Shown here piece after piece: positions 1-14,824 of a DNA stretch of 64,000 nucleotides. A model generated the notes under the pieces. It saw only the letters and a program-made list of their open reading frames with translations. It ran no database searches and had not been told where the DNA came from. The position numbers and the translations under genes were made by a program. The stretch comes from Dehalococcoidia bacterium. GTDB lineage: Bacteria > Chloroflexota > Dehalococcoidia > SM23-28-2 > HRBIN24. The stretch spans positions 1-64,000 of the forward strand of contig JANXAP010000009.1 of assembly GCA_025062275.1 (NCBI GenBank), in the 5' to 3' direction. How positions within the stretch are numbered: the first letter of the stretch is position 1; each line of letters begins with the position of its first letter.

Positions 1-2
1 AG

Positions 3-275
3 GCGAAGGCCCTGGCCGAGTCGGGCCTGGTGTGGGAGCTGGGCAGGGGAGTCTGGGCCGTCCAGGCCATGACCAGCTTCCACGGGAGCTACACCGTCCA
101 GGACATAGGCGGGCGCTTCACCTGCGAATGCAAAGGATACCACTACCGGGGCTACTGCAAGCACATCGAGGCTGTGCGCCTGGAGATGGGTGATGGGGAG
201 CCTGCCTTCGAGCCCGAGGAAGGAGGTGAGACGGCCCTCGTGGACGACCCCTGGCGGAGGTGGGTGCGCTGCTAG
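3..275 (+). CDS. SWIM zinc-finger protein, 5' end outside the window
   Basis: The reading frame is open from the first bases of the window, so the gene starts further left and only its C-terminal 90 residues are seen. They contain a SWIM zinc finger, C-x-C-x8-C-x-H (CECKGYHYRGYCKH, encoded at about 123-164), followed by an acidic, disordered-looking tail. SWIM domains bind zinc and usually mediate DNA or protein contacts; small stand-alone SWIM proteins are common in phages, plasmids and integrative elements. It is followed by two more small genes with strong ribosome sites on the same strand, which fits a mobile-element gene string. A GTG at 30 is in frame but lies inside the conserved stretch, so it is probably not the real start. 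The precise role is unknown. Confidence 0.7.
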   Translation, partial: AKALAESGLVWELGRGVWAVQAMTSFHGSYTVQDIGGRFTCECKGYHYRGYCKHIEAVRLEMGDGEPAFEPEEGGETALVDDPWRRWVRC

Positions 276-340
276 CAGGAGAGGGGGCCTGGTGGGGAGG
301 CGGCCCCATCAGGCCCCGCAACCCAAAAGGAGGCGAGACC

Positions 341-601
341 ATGGTGCAGGCGACGAAGGAACTGGTCAAGGTGGCCGAGGCCGAGCTTGGGGAGCGCATG
401 AGCGTCACGTTCTACTCCAACGGGACGGCCAGCCTGGGCTACTCGGACGAGTGCCCCAGGTGCGGTGCCCAGTCGAGCGATGGCGAGGCCTTCGACCCCG
501 CCGAGGCCTGGCACCTGCTGCAGGCGGTCCGCAGGTTCCTGCGCACGGACGCCTACAGGCAGGCCCAGGAAGCCATCCGGCGGGCCATCGAGGGGCCATA
601 G
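341..601 (+). CDS. Small hypothetical protein with one CxxC pair
   Basis: An 86-residue protein whose ATG is preceded by AAAAGGAGG at good distance; this decides the start over an upstream in-frame GTG/ATG. I do not recognise the family. Residues 1-34 look like a short amphipathic helix followed by beta strands, residues 35-45 hold a single Cys-x2-Cys (CPRCG), and residues 53-86 are predicted helical and rich in Arg, Ala and Gln. One CxxC alone could be half of a zinc site formed with a partner or dimer. It sits between the SWIM gene and another small unknown gene with the same spacing and the same kind of ribosome site, so the three are probably co-transcribed as accessory genes of an integrated element. 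Confidence 0.6.
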   Translation: MVQATKELVKVAEAELGERMSVTFYSNGTASLGYSDECPRCGAQSSDGEAFDPAEAWHLLQAVRRFLRTDAYRQAQEAIRRAIEGP

Positions 602-626
602 CCCTAGGCGAAAGGAGGGAGCGACC

Positions 627-1019
627 ATGCTGGTCACTATCGAGCGCATCGAGCACAAGAAGAATGGCGAGGGTAGCGTCTATGCCATCGTCCACCTGGA
701 GGGAGGCCAGCGGGTCTACTGCTGGGACGGGAAGGTCATCGGGGCCCTCCAGGCCGGGGCCGTCTATGAGGTGGAGGTCAAGGAGGGCAGGTTCCCACGG
801 CTGGTCAAGGCCCGCCCAGTGGCCAGCACGAACGGCGCCGGCGAGACAATCGTCTCACGGGAGGGGCGCCAGGCCCTGGAGGCCTCGGCGGCAGAGAGGC
901 TGGAGGCGCTGCGGCTCGTGCTGACGTTGGCCCAATGGACACGGCTCGACAGCGTCGACGCTGCCCTTGCTGCCGCTGACAAGGTGCTACAGTGGCTGAA
1001 GGAGGGGGGCGGCCGCTAG
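627..1019 (+). CDS. Small hypothetical protein, beta-rich N-terminus and helical C-terminus
   Basis: A 130-residue protein starting at an ATG preceded by GAAAGGAGGGAGCGACC. Residues 1-65 read as a run of short beta strands (LVTIERIEHKK, VYAIVHLEGG, RVYCWDG, YEVEVKEG), reminiscent of small OB-fold or single-strand-binding-like domains in phages, but no diagnostic motif is visible. Residues 78-128 are alpha-helical. The stop codon lies in a strong GC hairpin and a second hairpin with a T-run follows, so this is the last gene of its transcript. No function is assigned; an OB-fold nucleic-acid-binding role is only a guess. Confidence 0.55.
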   Translation: MLVTIERIEHKKNGEGSVYAIVHLEGGQRVYCWDGKVIGALQAGAVYEVEVKEGRFPRLVKARPVASTNGAGETIVSREGRQALEASAAERLEALRLVLTLAQWTRLDSVDAALAAADKVLQWLKEGGGR

Positions 1020-1041
1020 TGGCCGCCTCCCCTCTCCCATG

Positions 1042-1075
1042 GGCGGCCCTGGGCGACTGGGGCCGCCTCGCTTTT
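1042..1075 (+). terminator. Intrinsic terminator after the left-end gene string
   Basis: GGCGGCC at 1042-1048 pairs with GGCCGCC at 1061-1067 and is followed by TCGCTTTT. A second GC hairpin overlaps the stop codon of the preceding gene (about 1003-1036). Together they end transcription before the tRNA-like sequence. Confidence 0.65.
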
Positions 1076-1126
1076 AGAACGGATGTTGCCTAGACGTGGC
1101 GGCAGAGTGTGTGGTAGGGTGCTGCC

Positions 1127-1158
1127 TGCCGAGGGCTATTGTCGGCAATTTGTCGGCA
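1127..1158 (+). repeat. Clustered TCGGCA repeats beside the tRNA-like sequence
   Basis: TGCCGA at 1127-1132 faces TCGGCA at 1142-1147, and the same hexamer recurs as a direct repeat at 1153-1158, both direct copies lying in a TTGTCGGCA context. Short repeats next to a tRNA end resemble arm-type integrase sites, but this is only positional evidence. Confidence 0.4.
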
Positions 1159-1175
1159 GGAGAGGCGGCAGATTC

Positions 1176-1272
1176 GGGGGCCGTATTGGCCCGGTGGCCC
1201 TCCCGGTCTTCAAAACCGTGGCGGGGCGGCGTGCCCGTCCCGGGTGGGTTCGACTCCCATACACTCCCGCCA
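1176..1272 (+). tRNA. selC: tRNA-Sec (UCA)-like sequence with a mispaired 5' acceptor strand; possible attachment-site remnant
   Basis: From the D arm to the CCA end this matches a bacterial selenocysteine tRNA: GGCC-CGGT-GGCC D arm, anticodon loop CTTCAAA (anticodon TCA at 1210-1212), a long variable arm of about 8 pairs (1222-1241), T loop TTCGACT, then an 8-base acceptor strand, discriminator G and encoded CCA (1270-1272). The 97-base length fits the family. The 5' side does not: only the first five acceptor positions pair (one as G-U), positions 6-8 and the two outer D-stem positions mismatch, and the anticodon stem base is C-T. It may therefore be a 3' tRNA copy left by an element integrated into selC, with the intact gene left of the window, or a diverged or decayed gene. 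No selA, selB or selD is in the window. Confidence 0.55.
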
Positions 1273-1322
1273 ATACTCTGGTAAGATGGTGCTGGTGCCG
1301 GCCATCGGCCGCTCCGCCCGTC

Positions 1323-2471: not shown

Positions 2472-4352
2472 ATGGACGTGGTCGAAGAGGTCAAGGCGCG
2501 CCTGGACATAGTGGACGTGGTAGGGGAATACGTGCCCCTCCAGAAGGCGGGGCGCTACTACCGCGCCCTGTGCCCGTTCCACAGCGAGCGCACGCCGTCC
2601 TTCTACGTGTCGCCAGAACGCCAGAGCTGGCACTGCTTCGGCGCCTGTGGCACCGGCGGCGACGTCATTTCCTTCGTTATGCGGAAGGAGGGGCTGGAGT
2701 TCCGCGACGCCCTGCGTCTGCTGGCCCAGCGGGCCGGAGTTGCCCTGCCAGAGCGACAGGAGCGGAAGGAGGACGACCGTCTCCAGCGCCTGCGCTCGGC
2801 CACCGAGGCGGCCGCTGAGTTCTATCATCGCCAGCTGGTGCAGTCCGGCGAGGCTGCCACCGCCCGTCGCTACCTGGAGGGCAGGGGGGTGGATGCCGAG
2901 GCGTGCCGCCGCTTCCTCCTGGGCTACAGTCCCCAGGCCCGCGATGCCCTGCGACGGCACCTCTTGTCGCTGGGGTTTCGCGACGCCGAGCTGCTGGAGG
3001 CTGGGCTGCTGCTGGAAGGCGAGGGAGGCCTGCGTGACCGCTTCCACGGGCGGATCATGTTCACCATCTGGGACGAGCGGGGCAGGCCTGTGGGCTTCGG
3101 CGCCCGCGCCCTGGGCGACTCCCACCCCAAGTATCTGAACACCCCCCAGACGCCCATCTTCGACAAGGGCGGCCTCCTGTACCTGCTGGACCGCGCCAGG
3201 GAAGAGATTCGGCGCTCTGGCTGTGCCGTCATCGTCGAGGGATATATGGATGCCATCGCCGCCCACCAGAACGGATACACCAATGTGGTGGCATCTATGG
3301 GGACAGCCCTGACCGAGCGGCAGGTCCAGCTCCTGAAGCGTTACGCCCGGCGCATAGTGCTGGCCCTGGACGCCGACGCCGCCGGCGCCGCTGCAGCAGT
3401 GCGCGGGCACGAGGTGGTGAGCGCCACCACCGCCGGCGAGGGGGAGACGGTGCCCGTCCTCTCCTGGCGCGGGATGGTGCGCTATCAGGAGCGGGCGGCC
3501 GTGGACCTGAGGGTGGCCCTCCTGCCCCAGGGCAAGGACCCGGACGAGGTGATAAGGGCCTCGCCCGCGGACTGGCGGGAGCTGGTGGACAACGCAGAGC
3601 CTATACTCGAGTTCCGCTTCCGTCACGCCGCTGAGTCCCGCGACCTGCACGACCCCCGCGCCCGCTCGGAACTGGCCCAGGAGCTGTTGCCGCTGGTGGA
3701 GGCCATCGCCGACCCGGTGGTGCGGGCGCACTACCTGCAGCGGCTGGCCAGGCTGGCCCAGGTGCGGGAGGAGGACCTCCGTGCCTTCCTGCGCCGCCGT
3801 CGGACCGGCGAAGGGACGGCGGAGGCTTCCCCTGTTCCCCAGGCGCGCCGCGACCAGCGGGAGGACTGGCTGCTGGCCCTGCTCCTTCGCTATTCGCCCC
3901 TGCGGTCAGCGGGGATGGCCATCCCGGAGGAGCTGTTCTGGGACAGCGCCAACCGTCAGGTCCTGAGGGCCTGGAAAAGCTGCCGAGACCTCGCGGAGCT
4001 GCACCAGGCCCTGCCAGAAGAACTTCATCAACACGTGGAGTCCCTCATCTCCCTTTGGACAAGGTTCGACCCGTCGTGGGATAATGATTATGGCGAGAAA
4101 GCATTGCAGTCGTTGCTGAGGCGGCTGGAGGAGCGACAGCTCCGCGCCGAGAAAATGGCCCGGGCCGCGGCCCTGGCGGCCCAGGAGGAGGCCACGGGCA
4201 GCATGCCTCTGTTGGAGGAGGCGCTGCGCTCCCTGACGGAGGGGCGGGCGACCGAAGGTTCCCGCCTCCCCTTACTGCTGGAGGACCTGGAGCTGGGCCT
4301 GCGCCTCCACCGCCGCAGCGCTCGTACGACCGGCCCGGAGAACACGGGGTGA
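2472..4352 (+). CDS. dnaG: DNA primase DnaG
   Basis: 626 residues, full family length. It makes RNA primers for replication. The N-terminal CHC2 zinc ribbon has C34, H37, C55 and C59; the last pair is C-x3-C (CFGACG) rather than the usual C-x2-C. The catalytic core follows, and the TOPRIM domain shows the acidic residues E256 (VIVEGYMDA) and D300/D302 (VLALDADAAG). The C-terminal part (about 440-626) is the helicase-binding region and is less conserved. A TACAAT -10 element lies at 2448-2453, 18 bases before the start. rpoD starts 9 bases after the stop, so dnaG and rpoD form the macromolecular-synthesis operon, here without rpsU. Confidence 0.97.
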   Translation: MDVVEEVKARLDIVDVVGEYVPLQKAGRYYRALCPFHSERTPSFYVSPERQSWHCFGACGTGGDVISFVMRKEGLEFRDALRLLAQRAGVALPERQERKEDDRLQRLRSATEAAAEFYHRQLVQSGEAATARRYLEGRGVDAEACRRFLLGYSPQARDALRRHLLSLGFRDAELLEAGLLLEGEGGLRDRFHGRIMFTIWDERGRPVGFGARALGDSHPKYLNTPQTPIFDKGGLLYLLDRAREEIRRSGCAVIVEGYMDAIAAHQNGYTNVVASMGTALTERQVQLLKRYARRIVLALDADAAGAAAAVRGHEVVSATTAGEGETVPVLSWRGMVRYQERAAVDLRVALLPQGKDPDEVIRASPADWRELVDNAEPILEFRFRHAAESRDLHDPRARSELAQELLPLVEAIADPVVRAHYLQRLARLAQVREEDLRAFLRRRRTGEGTAEASPVPQARRDQREDWLLALLLRYSPLRSAGMAIPEELFWDSANRQVLRAWKSCRDLAELHQALPEELHQHVESLISLWTRFDPSWDNDYGEKALQSLLRRLEERQLRAEKMARAAALAAQEEATGSMPLLEEALRSLTEGRATEGSRLPLLLEDLELGLRLHRRSARTTGPENTG

Positions 4353-8297: not shown

Positions 8298-8888
8298 GTG
8301 GGCGCGCAGCAGCAGAGCGTGGTCACCCCCGAGCGATTCGCATCGGGCATGACCTGGGACGAATACCTCAACTCCATCAAGCGCAACCGGGACAAGTTCG
8401 AATACAACTATCGCGAGACCCAGCTCTCGGACGAGGACGTGCGGACCCTGAAGGAGCTGGTCTCCCTTCCCGATGGCCCGGCGAAGGTGCTGGCCCTGGG
8501 AGAGGACTGGTGCCCCGATGTCTTCCGCGGCCTGCCAGTCATGGCCAAGATGGCCCAAGCGGCCGGCATGGAGCTGCGCATCTTCCCCCGTGACCAGAAC
8601 CTGGACATCATGAACGAGTTCCTGAACCAGGGCAAGTACCAGTCCATTCCCACCTTCGTCTTTTACACCCGAGACCATCGCTACATATGCCACTGGATCG
8701 AGCGACCGGCCCTGGCCAACCAGGAGATGCACCTGCTGGAGGAGATCCGCCGCCTGCGAGAGGAGGACCCCGAACGCGCCCGCCAGGAATACGAAGCTTT
8801 CCAGCAAGGGCCCGTGTGGGCACGCTGGCGCCAGGAGACGGTGCGCGAGATCATAGCCCTCCTGAAAGAGAAGTGCGGGCGCGCCTGA
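8298..8888 (+). CDS. Thioredoxin-fold protein without a resolving cysteine
   Basis: 196 residues from a GTG preceded by GAAGGAGGTGCCAGC. The central part matches the thioredoxin-like family related to PF14595: a beta strand (KVLALGEDWCPDV, about 63-75), the YQSIPTFVFYTRD segment with a cis-proline context, and a long helical C-terminus. The active-site position reads W71-C72-P73-D74, so only one cysteine of the usual CxxC is kept. It is therefore unlikely to act as a dithiol oxidoreductase on its own; a monothiol, peroxidatic or purely structural role is possible. It directly precedes the archease gene but a TATAAT between them suggests separate transcription. Confidence 0.78.
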   Translation: MGAQQQSVVTPERFASGMTWDEYLNSIKRNRDKFEYNYRETQLSDEDVRTLKELVSLPDGPAKVLALGEDWCPDVFRGLPVMAKMAQAAGMELRIFPRDQNLDIMNEFLNQGKYQSIPTFVFYTRDHRYICHWIERPALANQEMHLLEEIRRLREEDPERARQEYEAFQQGPVWARWRQETVREIIALLKEKCGRA

Positions 8889-9418: not shown

Positions 9419-10309
9419 ATGGCCTATCTGGACACGGGCAGGGTGCGCTTGTGGTACGACGTTCGCGGGGAGGGCTTCCCGGTCCTCTTCATCCACGGTG
9501 GGTTTGCCGGGCTGGGCTACCGGCTGCAGCCGCGCACTTACGAGTGGCTGGACGAGTTCTCCCCTCACTACCGTGCGGTGGTCTATCACCGCCGCGGCTG
9601 CGGCTGGTCTTCCCTGCCCAGCGATGGCTGGTCGCTGGCGGACCAGGTGGCCGACGCCCTGGCCATCCTGGACGCCCTGGGGCTGGAGCAGGCCCACATC
9701 ATCGGCAGTTCGGCCGGGGGCCCCATCGCCCTGCTGCTGGCCCTGGAGCACCCCCAGCGGGTGCGCTCCCTGGCCCTGGCCAACACCGCTGCTTCCCTCT
9801 TCCGTCCCGAGGCCGACCGTGGCATCATCGCCGTCGTGCGGTCCGAACTGGACACGCTGCGCCGCGAGGGAGCCCTGGCCATGTTCCGACGTCGGCCTCT
9901 GGAGGCCCGGGTTTCCCTGGCCGCCCTTTGGGAGCGACCCGCCGCCGAGGCCTCCGGGCGGCTGGAGGAATGGTCGGCCGAGTACCGGCGACTGGCCGAG
10001 GAGGCCGCCGCCTCCCTGAGGGAGGAGGAGTGGGCACAGCTCTGCGCTGCCGAGGTGGAGAACATCGCCGCCTATCTCGACATCGACCTGCGGCCCCGTC
10101 TGGGCGAGGTGCGGGCGCCGGCCATTGTCGTTCACGGCGACGCCGACCGTGTGGTGCCCCTGGAGTGGGGCATCGAGCTGGCGCGAATGCTGCCCGCTGC
10201 AGAGCTGGCGGTGGTGCCCGGTGCCCCCCATGGCATCCTGGGGGACAGCGCCGAGGCCCGACGCCTGGTACTCGAGTTTTTCCTGCGGGTGGACGGCCGT
10301 TTGAGATGA
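9419..10309 (+). CDS. Alpha/beta-fold hydrolase between archease and RtcB
   Basis: 296 residues. The fold is clear: oxyanion-hole HGG at residues 26-28, nucleophile elbow G96-S-S98-A-G100, acid D243 in VVHGDADRVVP and catalytic H271 in PGAPHG. The cap between residues 125 and 215 is helical. The substrate cannot be predicted. Its place between archease and rtcB with short gaps means it is co-transcribed with the RNA ligase system, but I know of no established hydrolase partner in that pathway, so a functional link is only suggested by position. Confidence 0.87.
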   Translation: MAYLDTGRVRLWYDVRGEGFPVLFIHGGFAGLGYRLQPRTYEWLDEFSPHYRAVVYHRRGCGWSSLPSDGWSLADQVADALAILDALGLEQAHIIGSSAGGPIALLLALEHPQRVRSLALANTAASLFRPEADRGIIAVVRSELDTLRREGALAMFRRRPLEARVSLAALWERPAAEASGRLEEWSAEYRRLAEEAAASLREEEWAQLCAAEVENIAAYLDIDLRPRLGEVRAPAIVVHGDADRVVPLEWGIELARMLPAAELAVVPGAPHGILGDSAEARRLVLEFFLRVDGRLR

Positions 10310-10323
10310 GGTGGTGGTGAGCG

Positions 10324-11784
10324 ATGGGCAGGGACTGGAAGAGGGTGCTGCAGAAGATAGACGACTGGCGCTGGCTGCTGCCCCAGGAGTACAAGCCGGG
10401 CATGAGAGTGCCGGGACTCATCTACGCTTCCGAGGAGATGCTGTCCCACATCGGCGAGGACATGGCCATCGAGCAGGTGGCCAACGTGGCCTTCCTCCCG
10501 GGGATCGTCGGCTACTCCCTGGCCATGCCCGACATCCACTGGGGGTACGGCTTCCCCATCGGCGGCGTCGCCGCCATGCGGGTGGAGGACGGAGTCATCT
10601 CGCCGGGGGGCGTCGGCTTCGACATCAACTGCGGAACCCGCGTCATCCGCACCGACCTGCGGGAGGAGGACGTGCGACCCAAGCTGCGGGAGCTGGTGAA
10701 CCAGCTCTTCCGCGACATCCCCTCGGGGGTGGGCAGCGAGGGCTTGGTCAAGGTCTCCATGAAGGAGATCGACCAGGTGCTGGTGAAAGGCGCCCGCTGG
10801 GCGGTGGAGCAGGGCTACGGCTGGCCCGAGGACCTGGAGGCCATCGAAGGCGGCGGCGCGCTTCCCGGAGCCAACCCCGAGAAGGTGAGCCGTCGGGCCA
10901 AGGAGCGGGGGCTGCCGCAGCTGGGAACCCTGGGCTCGGGCAACCATTTCCTGGAGGTCCAGGTCATCGACCATATCTACGATACCGAGAAGGCAGCAGT
11001 GATGGGCATCCACGAGCCGGGGCAGGTGGTGGTCTTCGTCCACTGCGGATCCCGCGGGCTGGGCCATCAGACCTGCGAGGACTACCTGGACGTGATGGAG
11101 GCTTCGGCCAAGCGCTACAACATCCACCTGCCCGACCGTCAGCTGGCCTGTGCCCCCATACGCTCCAGAGAGGGGCAGGACTATCTGGCGGCCATGACGG
11201 CGGCGGCCAACTTCGCCTTCTGCAACCGCCAGATCATCACCCACTGGGTGCGGCAGGCCTTCGGCCGCGTACTGGGCCGCGACCCCCGCGACATGGGCAT
11301 GTATCTGGTCTACGACGTCGCCCACAACATCGCCAAGATAGAGCGCCACCGCTTCAACGGCCGCGAGCTGACGGTCTGCGTACACCGCAAGGGCGCCACG
11401 CGCGCCTTCGCCCCCGGACACCCCGACGTGCCCGCCCGCTACCGCAGCATCGGCCAGCCGGTGCTGGTGCCGGGCGACATGGGGAGATACTCTTTCCTGC
11501 TGGTAGGCACCCAGAGGGCCATGGAAGAGACCTGGGGCTCCACCTGCCACGGCGCCGGCCGCGTCCAGAGCCGTGCCGCCGCCAAACGCATGCTGAAAGG
11601 GGTGGACATCGCCGAGAAGCTGGCCGCCCGTGGCATCATCGTCCGCGCCCAGAACCGGGCGCTGCTGGCCGAGGAGGCCAGCGAGGCCTACAAGGACGTG
11701 GCCGACGTGGTGGAGGTGCTGCACGAGGCGGGCATTTCGCTGAAGGTCGCCCGCATGCGCCCCATCGGCGTGGTCAAGGGCTAG
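10324..11784 (+). CDS. rtcB: RNA-splicing ligase RtcB
   Basis: 486 residues, the full length of the GTP-dependent 3'-5' RNA ligase that joins 2',3'-cyclic phosphate or 3'-phosphate ends to 5'-OH. Active-site residues line up with the archaeal enzyme: D100 and C103 (GVGFDINCGTR), H208 (GSGNHFLE), H240 (HCGSRGLGH), H334 (YDVAHNIAK) and the guanylylated H409 in STCHGAGR. Metal sites therefore look intact. It ends the archease-hydrolase-rtcB operon. Its stop codon (CTAG) overlaps the stop of the convergent mscS gene. Likely roles are tRNA repair or RNA stress recovery. Confidence 0.97.
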   Translation: MGRDWKRVLQKIDDWRWLLPQEYKPGMRVPGLIYASEEMLSHIGEDMAIEQVANVAFLPGIVGYSLAMPDIHWGYGFPIGGVAAMRVEDGVISPGGVGFDINCGTRVIRTDLREEDVRPKLRELVNQLFRDIPSGVGSEGLVKVSMKEIDQVLVKGARWAVEQGYGWPEDLEAIEGGGALPGANPEKVSRRAKERGLPQLGTLGSGNHFLEVQVIDHIYDTEKAAVMGIHEPGQVVVFVHCGSRGLGHQTCEDYLDVMEASAKRYNIHLPDRQLACAPIRSREGQDYLAAMTAAANFAFCNRQIITHWVRQAFGRVLGRDPRDMGMYLVYDVAHNIAKIERHRFNGRELTVCVHRKGATRAFAPGHPDVPARYRSIGQPVLVPGDMGRYSFLLVGTQRAMEETWGSTCHGAGRVQSRAAAKRMLKGVDIAEKLAARGIIVRAQNRALLAEEASEAYKDVADVVEVLHEAGISLKVARMRPIGVVKG

Positions 11785-12623
11785 CGGTTCGACCCTTGGT
11801 CCTGGGCTAGAACGTGAGAGGGGAAGGGGACACGCACCCCCTCCCGCAGAAAGGCCTCCACCAGCCTCTGGCGCAACACCCCTGAAAGCTCCCACTGGCA
11901 GCCGGGGCGGGCCATCCCCCGCACCCGCAGCACTATGCCCTGGTCGCCTACCGCCTCCACCCAGGCCAGACGTGGTGCCTCGATGATGTGGTGCCCCCAG
12001 GCCGGGTCGCGGGCCAGCGCCTGCCCCACACCATCTACGATGCGACGCACTCGCTCCAGGTCCTCGCCGTAGGCCACCCGCACCTCCAGGAAGATGCCGC
12101 CGCTGCCGCGGGTGTAGTTGGACACCGCGCCGATGAGGCTGTTGGGGACGACGTGCAGCACTCCGCTCCAGTCCCGCAGGACGGTGCGACGCAGGCTCAG
12201 GTCCTCCACCACCCCCTGCAAGTTGCCCACGGCGATGTAGTCCCCCTTGCGGAACTGGTCCTCCAACAGGATGAAGACGCCGTTGATGACGTCCCGCACC
12301 AGCAGCTGGGCACCCAGCGCCAGGGCCACTCCGGTGATGCCCAGGCCCGTGAGCACGGCGGCGATGTTGACCCCCAGCTCGGGCAATATAGTCAGCAGGC
12401 CGATGATGAACAGCAGGGCCGCCACCAGCCAGTTGGCGGCCGACGCGAGGGTCTCCACTCTGCGGCGGAAGTCCACGTCCACCGCCGGATGGGAAAGCAG
12501 GCGGCCCAGGAGGCGCGGGAAGAAGACGCGGAAGACGATGTAGACCAGCGCCAGGGCCACGACGATGCCCACTATGCGCAGGCCATGGTCGAAGAACCAG
12601 TCCATGCCGTCCTGGGAGGTCAA
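11781..12623 (-). CDS. MscS-family mechanosensitive channel
   Basis: 280 residues if it starts at the TTG at 12623, which overlaps the pcrA stop (TTGA) and has an AGGGGGC ribosome site; an ATG at 12605 is the alternative. Three transmembrane helices are seen, at about residues 14-36, 60-80 and 85-113; the third carries the Gly/Ala-rich pore-lining pattern (ITGVALALGAQLLVRDVING). The MscS beta domain follows (GDYIAVGNLQGVVEDLSLRR, VVPNSLIG). Such channels open under membrane tension and release solutes during osmotic downshift. Co-transcribed with pcrA by overlap. Confidence 0.93.
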   Translation of the reverse strand: MTSQDGMDWFFDHGLRIVGIVVALALVYIVFRVFFPRLLGRLLSHPAVDVDFRRRVETLASAANWLVAALLFIIGLLTILPELGVNIAAVLTGLGITGVALALGAQLLVRDVINGVFILLEDQFRKGDYIAVGNLQGVVEDLSLRRTVLRDWSGVLHVVPNSLIGAVSNYTRGSGGIFLEVRVAYGEDLERVRRIVDGVGQALARDPAWGHHIIEAPRLAWVEAVGDQGIVLRVRGMARPGCQWELSGVLRQRLVEAFLREGVRVPFPSHVLAQDQGSNR

Positions 12624-14824
12624 GACGCCCCCTGGGGCCCGGCATGCTCCAGCCGGGCCAGCGATAGCAGCAGCTTCTTGATGCCTGCCTCGCCCTTGAA
12701 GGCCACCGTCACAAGATGGTCATCGCCTGTGGGGGTGCAGGACACGACCACCCCCTCTCCGAAGCGGGGATGGCGCACCCGGTCGCCCGCCCTGAAAGCG
12801 GGAGCGGTGGCGCCGCCATCGGCGCTGGTCGCGGGGGTGGCGTAGACCTGGGAGGGACGACGAGGCTGGGCCGGCACCACCAGGTGGGGCGGGATATCGG
12901 CCAGGAAGCGCGAGGGCGGGTGCGGCCCGCCGCGGCTGCGGCGGAAGGCACGCACCAGGTAGAGCAGCTCCTTGGCCCTCGTCATCCCCACGTAGCACAG
13001 ACGCCGCTCCTCCTCCATCTGCTCTGGGTCGTCGAAGGAGCGGATGTGGGGCAGGAGGCCCTCCTCCATCCCCACGATGAACACCACCGGGAACTCCAGC
13101 CCCTTGGCAGCGTGAAGAGTGATGAGGGTGACAGCATTGGCGCTCTCGTCGTAGCGGTCCACATCCGTGACCAGGGCCACGTCCTCCAGCAGGGCTGCCA
13201 GGGCATCCTGCGGCCGCAGCTCGTCGTAGGTGGCGGCCACAGAGCGCAGCTCCTCCACGTTCTCCCAGCGCTCCTCTCCCTGCGGCTCGGACAGGATGTA
13301 GGGGCGGTAGTCGGTGGCCTCGATGACCGCGTCCAGTAGCTGCGACAGAGGCACCTGAGAGGCCCGGGCGATGAGCTGGTTCAGGAGGCCCAGGAAGCGC
13401 AGCAAGGCCCCCACCGCCCGCCGCTGGAATCCCGGCTTCGGCGCGGCGGGAGATTCCGGCGTGGGAGAGTCCCTCTCCTGCTGAGCCAGCAACTGCAGCG
13501 CGGCGTAGAGGGGGACCCCCAGCTGTCGCGCCCAGCGCTGCAGCTCCAGAACCGTCCGCTCGCCAATGCCCCGCGGCGGCACGTTCAGCACCCGCAGCAG
13601 GGCTACCGAGTCGAAGGGGTTGTGGACCAGGCGCAGGTAGGCCAGCAGGTCCTTCACCTCGCGCCGCTCGTAGAACCGCACGCCCCCCACCAGCCGGTAG
13701 GGGATGCCACGACGCAGAAAGGCCTCTTCCAGCGGCCGCGACTGGGCATTGGTGCGGTACATGACGGCGAAGTGGCGATACGGGCGCCTCTCCTCCCTGG
13801 CCAGCCGCTCGATCTCGGCGGCAACGAAGGAGGCTTCCTCCACCTCGTCGAAGGCCTCGTAGACCACCGCCGGCAGACCGGGGCCGTTTTCCGTCCACAG
13901 GTCTTTCTCTTTGCGCTGGCGGTTCTTGGCGATGACGTGTCGGGCGCAGTCCAGGATGGCCTGGGTCGAGCGGTAGTTCTGCTCCAGCAGGACCACCTTC
14001 GCCTCGGGAAAGTCGTGCTCGAAGCTCAGGATGTTGCGTATATCGGCCGCCCGCCAGGTGTAAATGGACTGGTCGGGGTCCCCCACCACGCAGAGGTTGC
14101 GGTGGGGCTCGCACAGCAGCCGGGCCAGGGCATACTGGGCCACGTTGGTGTCTTGGAACTCGTCTATGTGCTGGTAGAGGAAGCGCTCGGCATACCTGGC
14201 CCGTACATCCTCGTGCTCCTGGAAGAGCTGCACCGTCTTGTTGAGCAGGTCGTCGAAGTCCAGGGCCGACGCCTCCTCCAGGATTCGCTGGTAGACGGCG
14301 TAGACGCGGGCGGCCACCTCCTGGAAATAGCTCTGGGCCAGCGCCGCCATGGACTGGGGGGTGCGCAGCTCCGCCTTGGCCCTCGAGATGAGGGAGAGGA
14401 CTGCCGCCGGCGGCACCCGCTTGGCGTCCAGGTCCAGCTCCGACAGGGCCCGCCTGACGGCGCCTATTTGGTCCTCCTCGTCATAGATGACGAAGGAGCG
14501 GGGAATGCCTATACGGTGCCCGTCGGCCCTCAGGATTCGCGCGCAGAGGGAGTGAAAGGTGCCTATGGCCATCTCCTGCCCGGCCGCCTCCCCCACCAGG
14601 GACAGCACCCGCTCCCGCATCTCCCGCGCCGCCTTGTTGGTGAAGGTGACGGCCAGAATGCGATAGGGCCTCACGCCGCGGTGGGCCAACAGGTAGGCGA
14701 TGCGGTGCGCGATGACCCGAGTCTTACCCGACCCCGGCCCGGCCACGATGAGCAGCGGGCCCTCGGTATGGGTCACGGCCTCCCGCTGGCGCGGGTTGAG
14801 AGGGTCCAGGATGGGGTCGCTCAT
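12620..14824 (-). CDS. pcrA: UvrD/PcrA-type superfamily 1 DNA helicase
   Basis: 734 residues. All SF1A motifs are present: Q motif LNPRQREAV, Walker A AGPGSGKTR (28-36), Ia VTFTNKAAREMRERV, II DEFQDTN, III VGDPDQSIYTWRAAD, IV EQNYRSTQAIL, V LITLHAAKGLEFPVVF and VI YVGMTRAKELLYL. The C-terminus has the PcrA/UvrD Tudor-like RNA-polymerase-contact domain (GDRVRHPRFGEGVVV). It unwinds DNA 3'-5' in nucleotide excision and mismatch repair and in replication restart. The gene is followed with a 4-base overlap by mscS and preceded by maf, 15 bases away. Confidence 0.95.
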   Translation of the reverse strand: MSDPILDPLNPRQREAVTHTEGPLLIVAGPGSGKTRVIAHRIAYLLAHRGVRPYRILAVTFTNKAAREMRERVLSLVGEAAGQEMAIGTFHSLCARILRADGHRIGIPRSFVIYDEEDQIGAVRRALSELDLDAKRVPPAAVLSLISRAKAELRTPQSMAALAQSYFQEVAARVYAVYQRILEEASALDFDDLLNKTVQLFQEHEDVRARYAERFLYQHIDEFQDTNVAQYALARLLCEPHRNLCVVGDPDQSIYTWRAADIRNILSFEHDFPEAKVVLLEQNYRSTQAILDCARHVIAKNRQRKEKDLWTENGPGLPAVVYEAFDEVEEASFVAAEIERLAREERRPYRHFAVMYRTNAQSRPLEEAFLRRGIPYRLVGGVRFYERREVKDLLAYLRLVHNPFDSVALLRVLNVPPRGIGERTVLELQRWARQLGVPLYAALQLLAQQERDSPTPESPAAPKPGFQRRAVGALLRFLGLLNQLIARASQVPLSQLLDAVIEATDYRPYILSEPQGEERWENVEELRSVAATYDELRPQDALAALLEDVALVTDVDRYDESANAVTLITLHAAKGLEFPVVFIVGMEEGLLPHIRSFDDPEQMEEERRLCYVGMTRAKELLYLVRAFRRSRGGPHPPSRFLADIPPHLVVPAQPRRPSQVYATPATSADGGATAPAFRAGDRVRHPRFGEGVVVSCTPTGDDHLVTVAFKGEAGIKKLLLSLARLEHAGPQGAS

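Follow-up and report, generated by a model that had tools for sequence, protein, structure and literature searches.

A displaced tRNA-Sec gene fragment at the start of a Dehalococcoidia contig, very probably the attR side of a tyrosine-integrase element in selC

Insertion into a tRNA gene, with a working copy of that gene rebuilt in the process, is a classic route for phages and genomic islands. Integrases of the mycobacteriophage L5 and lambda type recognize a core site together with separate, repeated arm sites, and combine a SAM-like core-binding domain with a catalytic domain, as does the integrase described below. In enterobacteria, selC is the site of the islands LEE, SHI-2, and PAI I of strain 536 (PMC7545054). 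The Pf filamentous prophages of Pseudomonas aeruginosa use tRNA-Sec as attB, with a 27-bp core that runs from the T arm to CCA (PMC7549136). The ends of islands are marked by a regenerated target and a displaced fragment (PMC4383910), and the annotation of displaced fragments as tRNA genes is a documented error (PMC9897764). Integration in selC is already known as a kind of system, and the present case comes from a little-studied lineage, for which a Chloroflexota-worded search of the open-access literature returned no report of selC integration, a weak negative.

The window, by which we mean the whole 64,000-nucleotide stretch analysed, begins with the first base of contig C9 in a Dehalococcoidia genome (G000; 1.81 Mb, 41 contigs). 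ARAGORN called a tRNA-SeC(TCA) at positions 1179-1268, and the Rfam tRNA-Sec model RF01852 matched positions 1177-1268 with 62.1 bits, above its gathering score of 47; some pairs of its acceptor stem and outer D stem are non-standard. The first-pass annotation, which had proposed the ARAGORN run, had described just such a tRNA-Sec from the letters, with anticodon TCA, poor acceptor pairing and a mismatched outer D stem, and both programs agree with it. The acceptor stem of this copy is incomplete, and the acceptor helix is absent from the predicted cloverleaf fold. The two segments that make up the copy are:

1177-1187, + strand: element DNA in place of the 5′ acceptor strand, GGGGCCGTATT instead of GGGAGTGGCAG (alignment with the intact copy)
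1188-1276, + strand: attR core, the displaced 3′ part of selC from the D arm to CCA plus ATAC (BLASTN, 89/89 against L009 9891-9979)

Scanning the complete genome with RF01852 located a better tRNA-Sec at G000:C34:44878-44970, which scored 74.9 bits versus 62.1 for the window copy; the remaining matches above the cut-off were tRNA-Ser genes with long variable arms, and a whole-genome DNA search for selC-like DNA returned only these two copies. In the locus coordinates used for this region of C34 (L009), the attL core lies at 9891-9979. It is identical to window positions 1188-1276 over 89 bp that begin in the D arm and run four bases past CCA, and the identity ends abruptly on both sides. An intact selC in the same orientation, sharing about 80 bases, had been predicted from the window, and the C34 copy bears this out with its 89. 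The intact gene lies about 65 bp after hemL. Since SelA (573.7 bits) and SelB (340.9 bits, together with neighbours in frame) are both encoded in the genome, the cell presumably needs a functional tRNA-Sec; no selenoprotein with a UGA codon was demonstrated, and a search for formate dehydrogenase gave only below-cut-off matches. The first-pass annotation had held that the window copy would be the functional gene if no other selC were present in a genome that has selA, selB and selenoproteins; selA and selB are present, and a better selC exists.

Directly after the intact selC, but on a contig other than that of the window, we found the tyrosine recombinase that had also been predicted, about 110 bp downstream and in the same orientation. 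The first two element genes on this side are:

L009 10086-11156, same orientation as selC: tyrosine integrase, 356 aa (PF00589 and PF14659; phrog_1, 2.4e-63)
after the integrase gene on C34: excisionase-like HTH protein, 71 aa (TIGR01764, excise)

The catalytic R, K, HxxR, H, and Y motifs of the integrase are intact and common to its relatives. Its best phage matches over the full length were integrases of Thermus phages, such as Riverbug, at about 31-33% identity; relatives in GTDB and IMG/VR loci reached only 27-29%, and lambda Int (1z1b) and similar proteins were weak sequence matches in the PDB. The excisionase-like protein also matches phrog_57, a terminase-small-subunit HTH family. It is followed by a 150-aa protein, a 687-aa primase/AAA helicase, a 156-aa protein, and an exonuclease (phrog_298) that is truncated by the end of C34. 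Taken together, the two contigs show marks of an Islander-type island, namely an intact tRNA gene at one end, a 3′ fragment in exact repeat at the other, and a recombinase beside the regenerated tRNA. We therefore consider it very probable that the first 1.28 kb of the window are the right end, or attR side, of a tyrosine-integrase element in selC.

A second functional selC that arose by duplication, with no element involved, would also leave two copies, and ARAGORN and Rfam do still call the window copy a tRNA-Sec above the gathering score. In a duplicate, however, one would not look for identity that begins abruptly in the D arm, nor for a replaced 5′ acceptor strand with no acceptor stem formed; moreover, the C34 copy adjoins the integrase gene, and arm sites flank both cores. 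We consider this explanation very improbable; the replaced acceptor strand was the reason for rejecting it. What tRNA finders still report as a second "selC" gene in genomes of this kind is the remnant of an attachment site.

Like LEE, SHI-2, and PAI I536, the element reported here fits an integrase-mediated island at selC, with direct repeats flanking those islands where they have been described. Unlike them, it belongs to an unrelated lineage and carries unrelated cargo, its 89-bp core extends to the D arm, and its known part consists of replication and recombination genes, with no virulence cargo seen. With the Pf prophages at tRNA-Sec it has in common this tRNA gene as attB, a single type of integrase for each site, and a TIGR01764-type excisionase, whereas its core is 89 bp long and includes the anticodon arm, and no filamentous phage genes were seen.

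On the window side, the attR core is preceded by three small genes and a hairpin, and followed by a host gene:

3-275, + strand: element gene, 90 aa, SWIM zinc finger, 5′ end off the contig (PF04434, E 5.5e-4; phrog_29279)
341-601, + strand: element gene, 86 aa (ORF; no family match)
627-1019, + strand: element gene, 130 aa (ORF)
1042-1074, + strand: terminator-like hairpin and short T run after the last element gene
1323-2399, + strand: dGTP triphosphohydrolase (dgt), first host gene past attR (NCBIfam NF002327, 479.7 bits)

The first-pass annotation had called the three small genes phage- or ICE-like. They are indeed + strand ORFs before the repeats, one with a SWIM finger, but beyond this weak match the label had no independent basis until the element context was available. 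The 130-aa gene had no relatives in 24 order-level genomes, phage collections, or IMG/VR, and a single-sequence model of its product was of low confidence (pLDDT 56), too poor for a structure search. As for the terminator, a perfect 8-bp inverted repeat (1042-1049/1060-1067) is followed by CGCTTTT, but a consensus scan did not call the hairpin at 1042-1067 a terminator, which leaves that designation weakly supported. Past attR, dgt is followed by dnaG and rpoD; because relatives preserve the order dgt-dnaG, and the same-genus genome G001 has rpoD next as well, the DNA beyond attR is that of the host.

Between the hairpin and the attR core lie the TCGGCA repeats noted at first reading, which proved real: TTGTCGGCA occurs twice at 11-bp spacing. 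This pair and the other repeat features of the element and its relatives are:

1139-1158, + strand: candidate integrase arm-type site, TTGTCGGCA twice (at 1139 and 1150)
L009 10029-10047: period-11 8-mer site at the selC integrase
L169 9759-9777: period-11 8-mer site
L170 about 8446-8464: period-11 8-mer site
L171 about 3053-3085: period-11 8-mer site
843-856, no strand assigned: near-palindrome GAGACAATCGTCTC, also at L009 14548-14561 and L169 14125-14138

The attR-side repeat is 31 bp from its core and its partner, at L009 10030-10047, is 50 bp from the attL core, each on the element side. TTGTCGGCAAWTTGTCGG has exactly two matches in the 1.8-Mb genome at up to two mismatches, one inside each att end. 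Perfect 8-mers at exact 11-bp spacing occur between tRNA and integrase gene in four related integrases, each with a different sequence. The three others of this subfamily, 50-62% identical, lie at tRNA-Lys (G000:C25) and at tRNA-Thr and tRNA-Arg (G002), and shuffling gave each of their repeats a chance of about 0.5-2%, while more distant control integrases (36% identity or less) rarely carry a period-11 repeat. On this sequence evidence, the TTGTCGGCA repeats are probably integrase arm-type sites, differing from those of L5 and lambda in that the pairs are spaced by exactly 11 bp and vary in sequence between sister elements. The near-palindrome GAGACRATCGTCTC, possibly a regulator site, lies close to each end of the selC element and recurs in the tRNA-Lys sister; its sharing further ties C9 to C34.

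These matches bear on two further explanations. One holds that the window end and the C34 integrase derive from two elements that used selC at different times, as a tandem or a remnant. The middle is indeed missing, and the relatives G021 and G015 contain several 3′ copies of selC from tandem or decayed insertions; the 89-bp core, on the other hand, is identical including the four bases past CCA, and both sides share the otherwise unique arm motif and the rare near-palindrome, which makes two elements unlikely. The other, that C34 and C9 come from different organisms and were binned together in error, might be entertained for an assembly of 41 contigs with an estimated contamination of 0.73%. 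Against this, the 89-bp match is 100%, compared with a selC divergence of 3-6% in same-family relatives, and core genes on both contigs (the hem genes; dgt-dnaG-rpoD) have the genus-mate G001 as best relative, so that we give this explanation very little credence. A single element spanning C34 and C9 is the reading we prefer. The integrated element foreseen at first reading is supported, the remaining limit being physical linkage: with its ends on separate contigs and the middle absent from the small contigs that we screened, their linkage rests on the att, arm, and palindrome matches.

According to the mechanism we propose, the N-terminal domain of the integrase would bind the 11-bp-period repeats, and strand exchange would take place in the 89-bp core. 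Its probable position is the anticodon arm, a tRNA segment that the att of the sister element at tRNA-Lys contains as well. The element would supply the 3′ part of selC, with which the host 5′ part and promoter at hemL would regain a working tRNA, and the original 3′ end of selC would be displaced to C9, beside dgt. The excisionase-like HTH protein would permit excision. In the circular form, the repeats would flank the core like arm-type sites, and the expected order in attP would be TTGTCGGCAATTTGTCGG, 31 bp, the 89-bp core, 50 bp, and TTGTCGGCAAATTGTCGG. The comparison with relatives that the first-pass annotation had suggested shows that the same-genus G001 has an intact selC with no element and no integrase nearby, although the neighbours of selC there differ from hemL and dgt. 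The order hemL-selC-dgt was sought in relatives and not found, the three genes not being adjacent there, so the empty site stays a reconstruction.

The ends of C34 and C25 are identical over exactly 141 bp (L009 14860-15000, L169 14455-14595), inside the exonuclease gene, whereas the DNA preceding this stretch is only about 78% alike. We attribute the break in C34 to this identical tail, the simplest reading of which is an assembly fork into a shared, unbinned middle; that middle was possibly exchanged recently between the selC element and its sister. When the initial 20 kb of all other contigs in the genome were searched with element proteins and end sequences, no join to C34 or C9 emerged (one short contig, C15, reads as N). 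For 95 proteins of 13 small contigs, the 25 PHROGs families listed included no phage structural one, and the 5.1 kb and 1.2 kb of element seen contain no convincing terminase, portal, or capsid gene, nor any relaxase or type IV secretion gene. The element may be a phage, an ICE, or a satellite.

At tRNA-Lys(CTT), the genome carries the sister element, which comprises L169 (C25) 9763-14595 and L128 (C31) 1-81. It is 59% identical to the selC element in the integrase, 79% in the 150-aa protein, 84% in the 156-aa protein, and 89% in the exonuclease. Its repeat (C31:1-81 = L169 9658-9738) covers the tRNA-Lys 5′ half, bounded by the anticodon loop, together with 38 bp of upstream DNA in which a TTGACA lies; the left limit is fixed by the start of contig C31. 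In G002, too, the tRNA-Thr integrase faces the 5′ end of the tRNA. Among archaea, 5′-half use has been described for pTN3-like integrases alone, and recombinant tRNA genes in bacteria usually retain the original promoter (PMC8371274). Separately, G002:C15 holds a same-subfamily integrase remnant with its middle deleted (L172 9829-10400), by a tRNA-Pro gene and 2 kb from the intact selC of G002.

Several of 60 related genomes contain additional 3′ copies of selC, on the same contig or a different one. In G007, the intact selC and a 75-bp exact 3′ copy lie 14.2 kb apart (L049 2370-16647), with very large ORFs and no recognised integrase between them. G021 has an integrase beside a selC 3′ copy (L050 9810-11511), 30% identical to the C34 integrase, and G010 one beside selC (L060 2371-3712), 36% identical to it; both are coded the opposite way, towards selC. 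G015 has a 39-bp exact selC repeat and an integrase remnant. Two nearly full-length selC genes with similar flanks lie 4.5 kb apart in G043 (L054 2443-7021), a pair that resembles a segmental duplication more than the end of an element.

Our findings show that integration at tRNA-Sec recurs in this bacterial order, through integrases that share only about 30-37% identity. We further put forward, tentatively and at slightly less than even confidence, that the integrase subfamily has one mechanism, with crossover at the anticodon arm and 8-mer arm sites every 11 bp between core and integrase gene, while the target tRNA and the half that is carried vary: the 3′ half of selC in one case, the 5′ half of tRNA-Lys with its upstream promoter region in the other. 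If this is true, repeat sequence and target change together and form a natural series on how integrases switch site. The related elements at the tRNAs for Sec, Lys, Thr, and Arg differ in their 11-bp-period repeats and make up a small natural set for studies of target change by tyrosine integrases and of the tRNA half that these enzymes restore.
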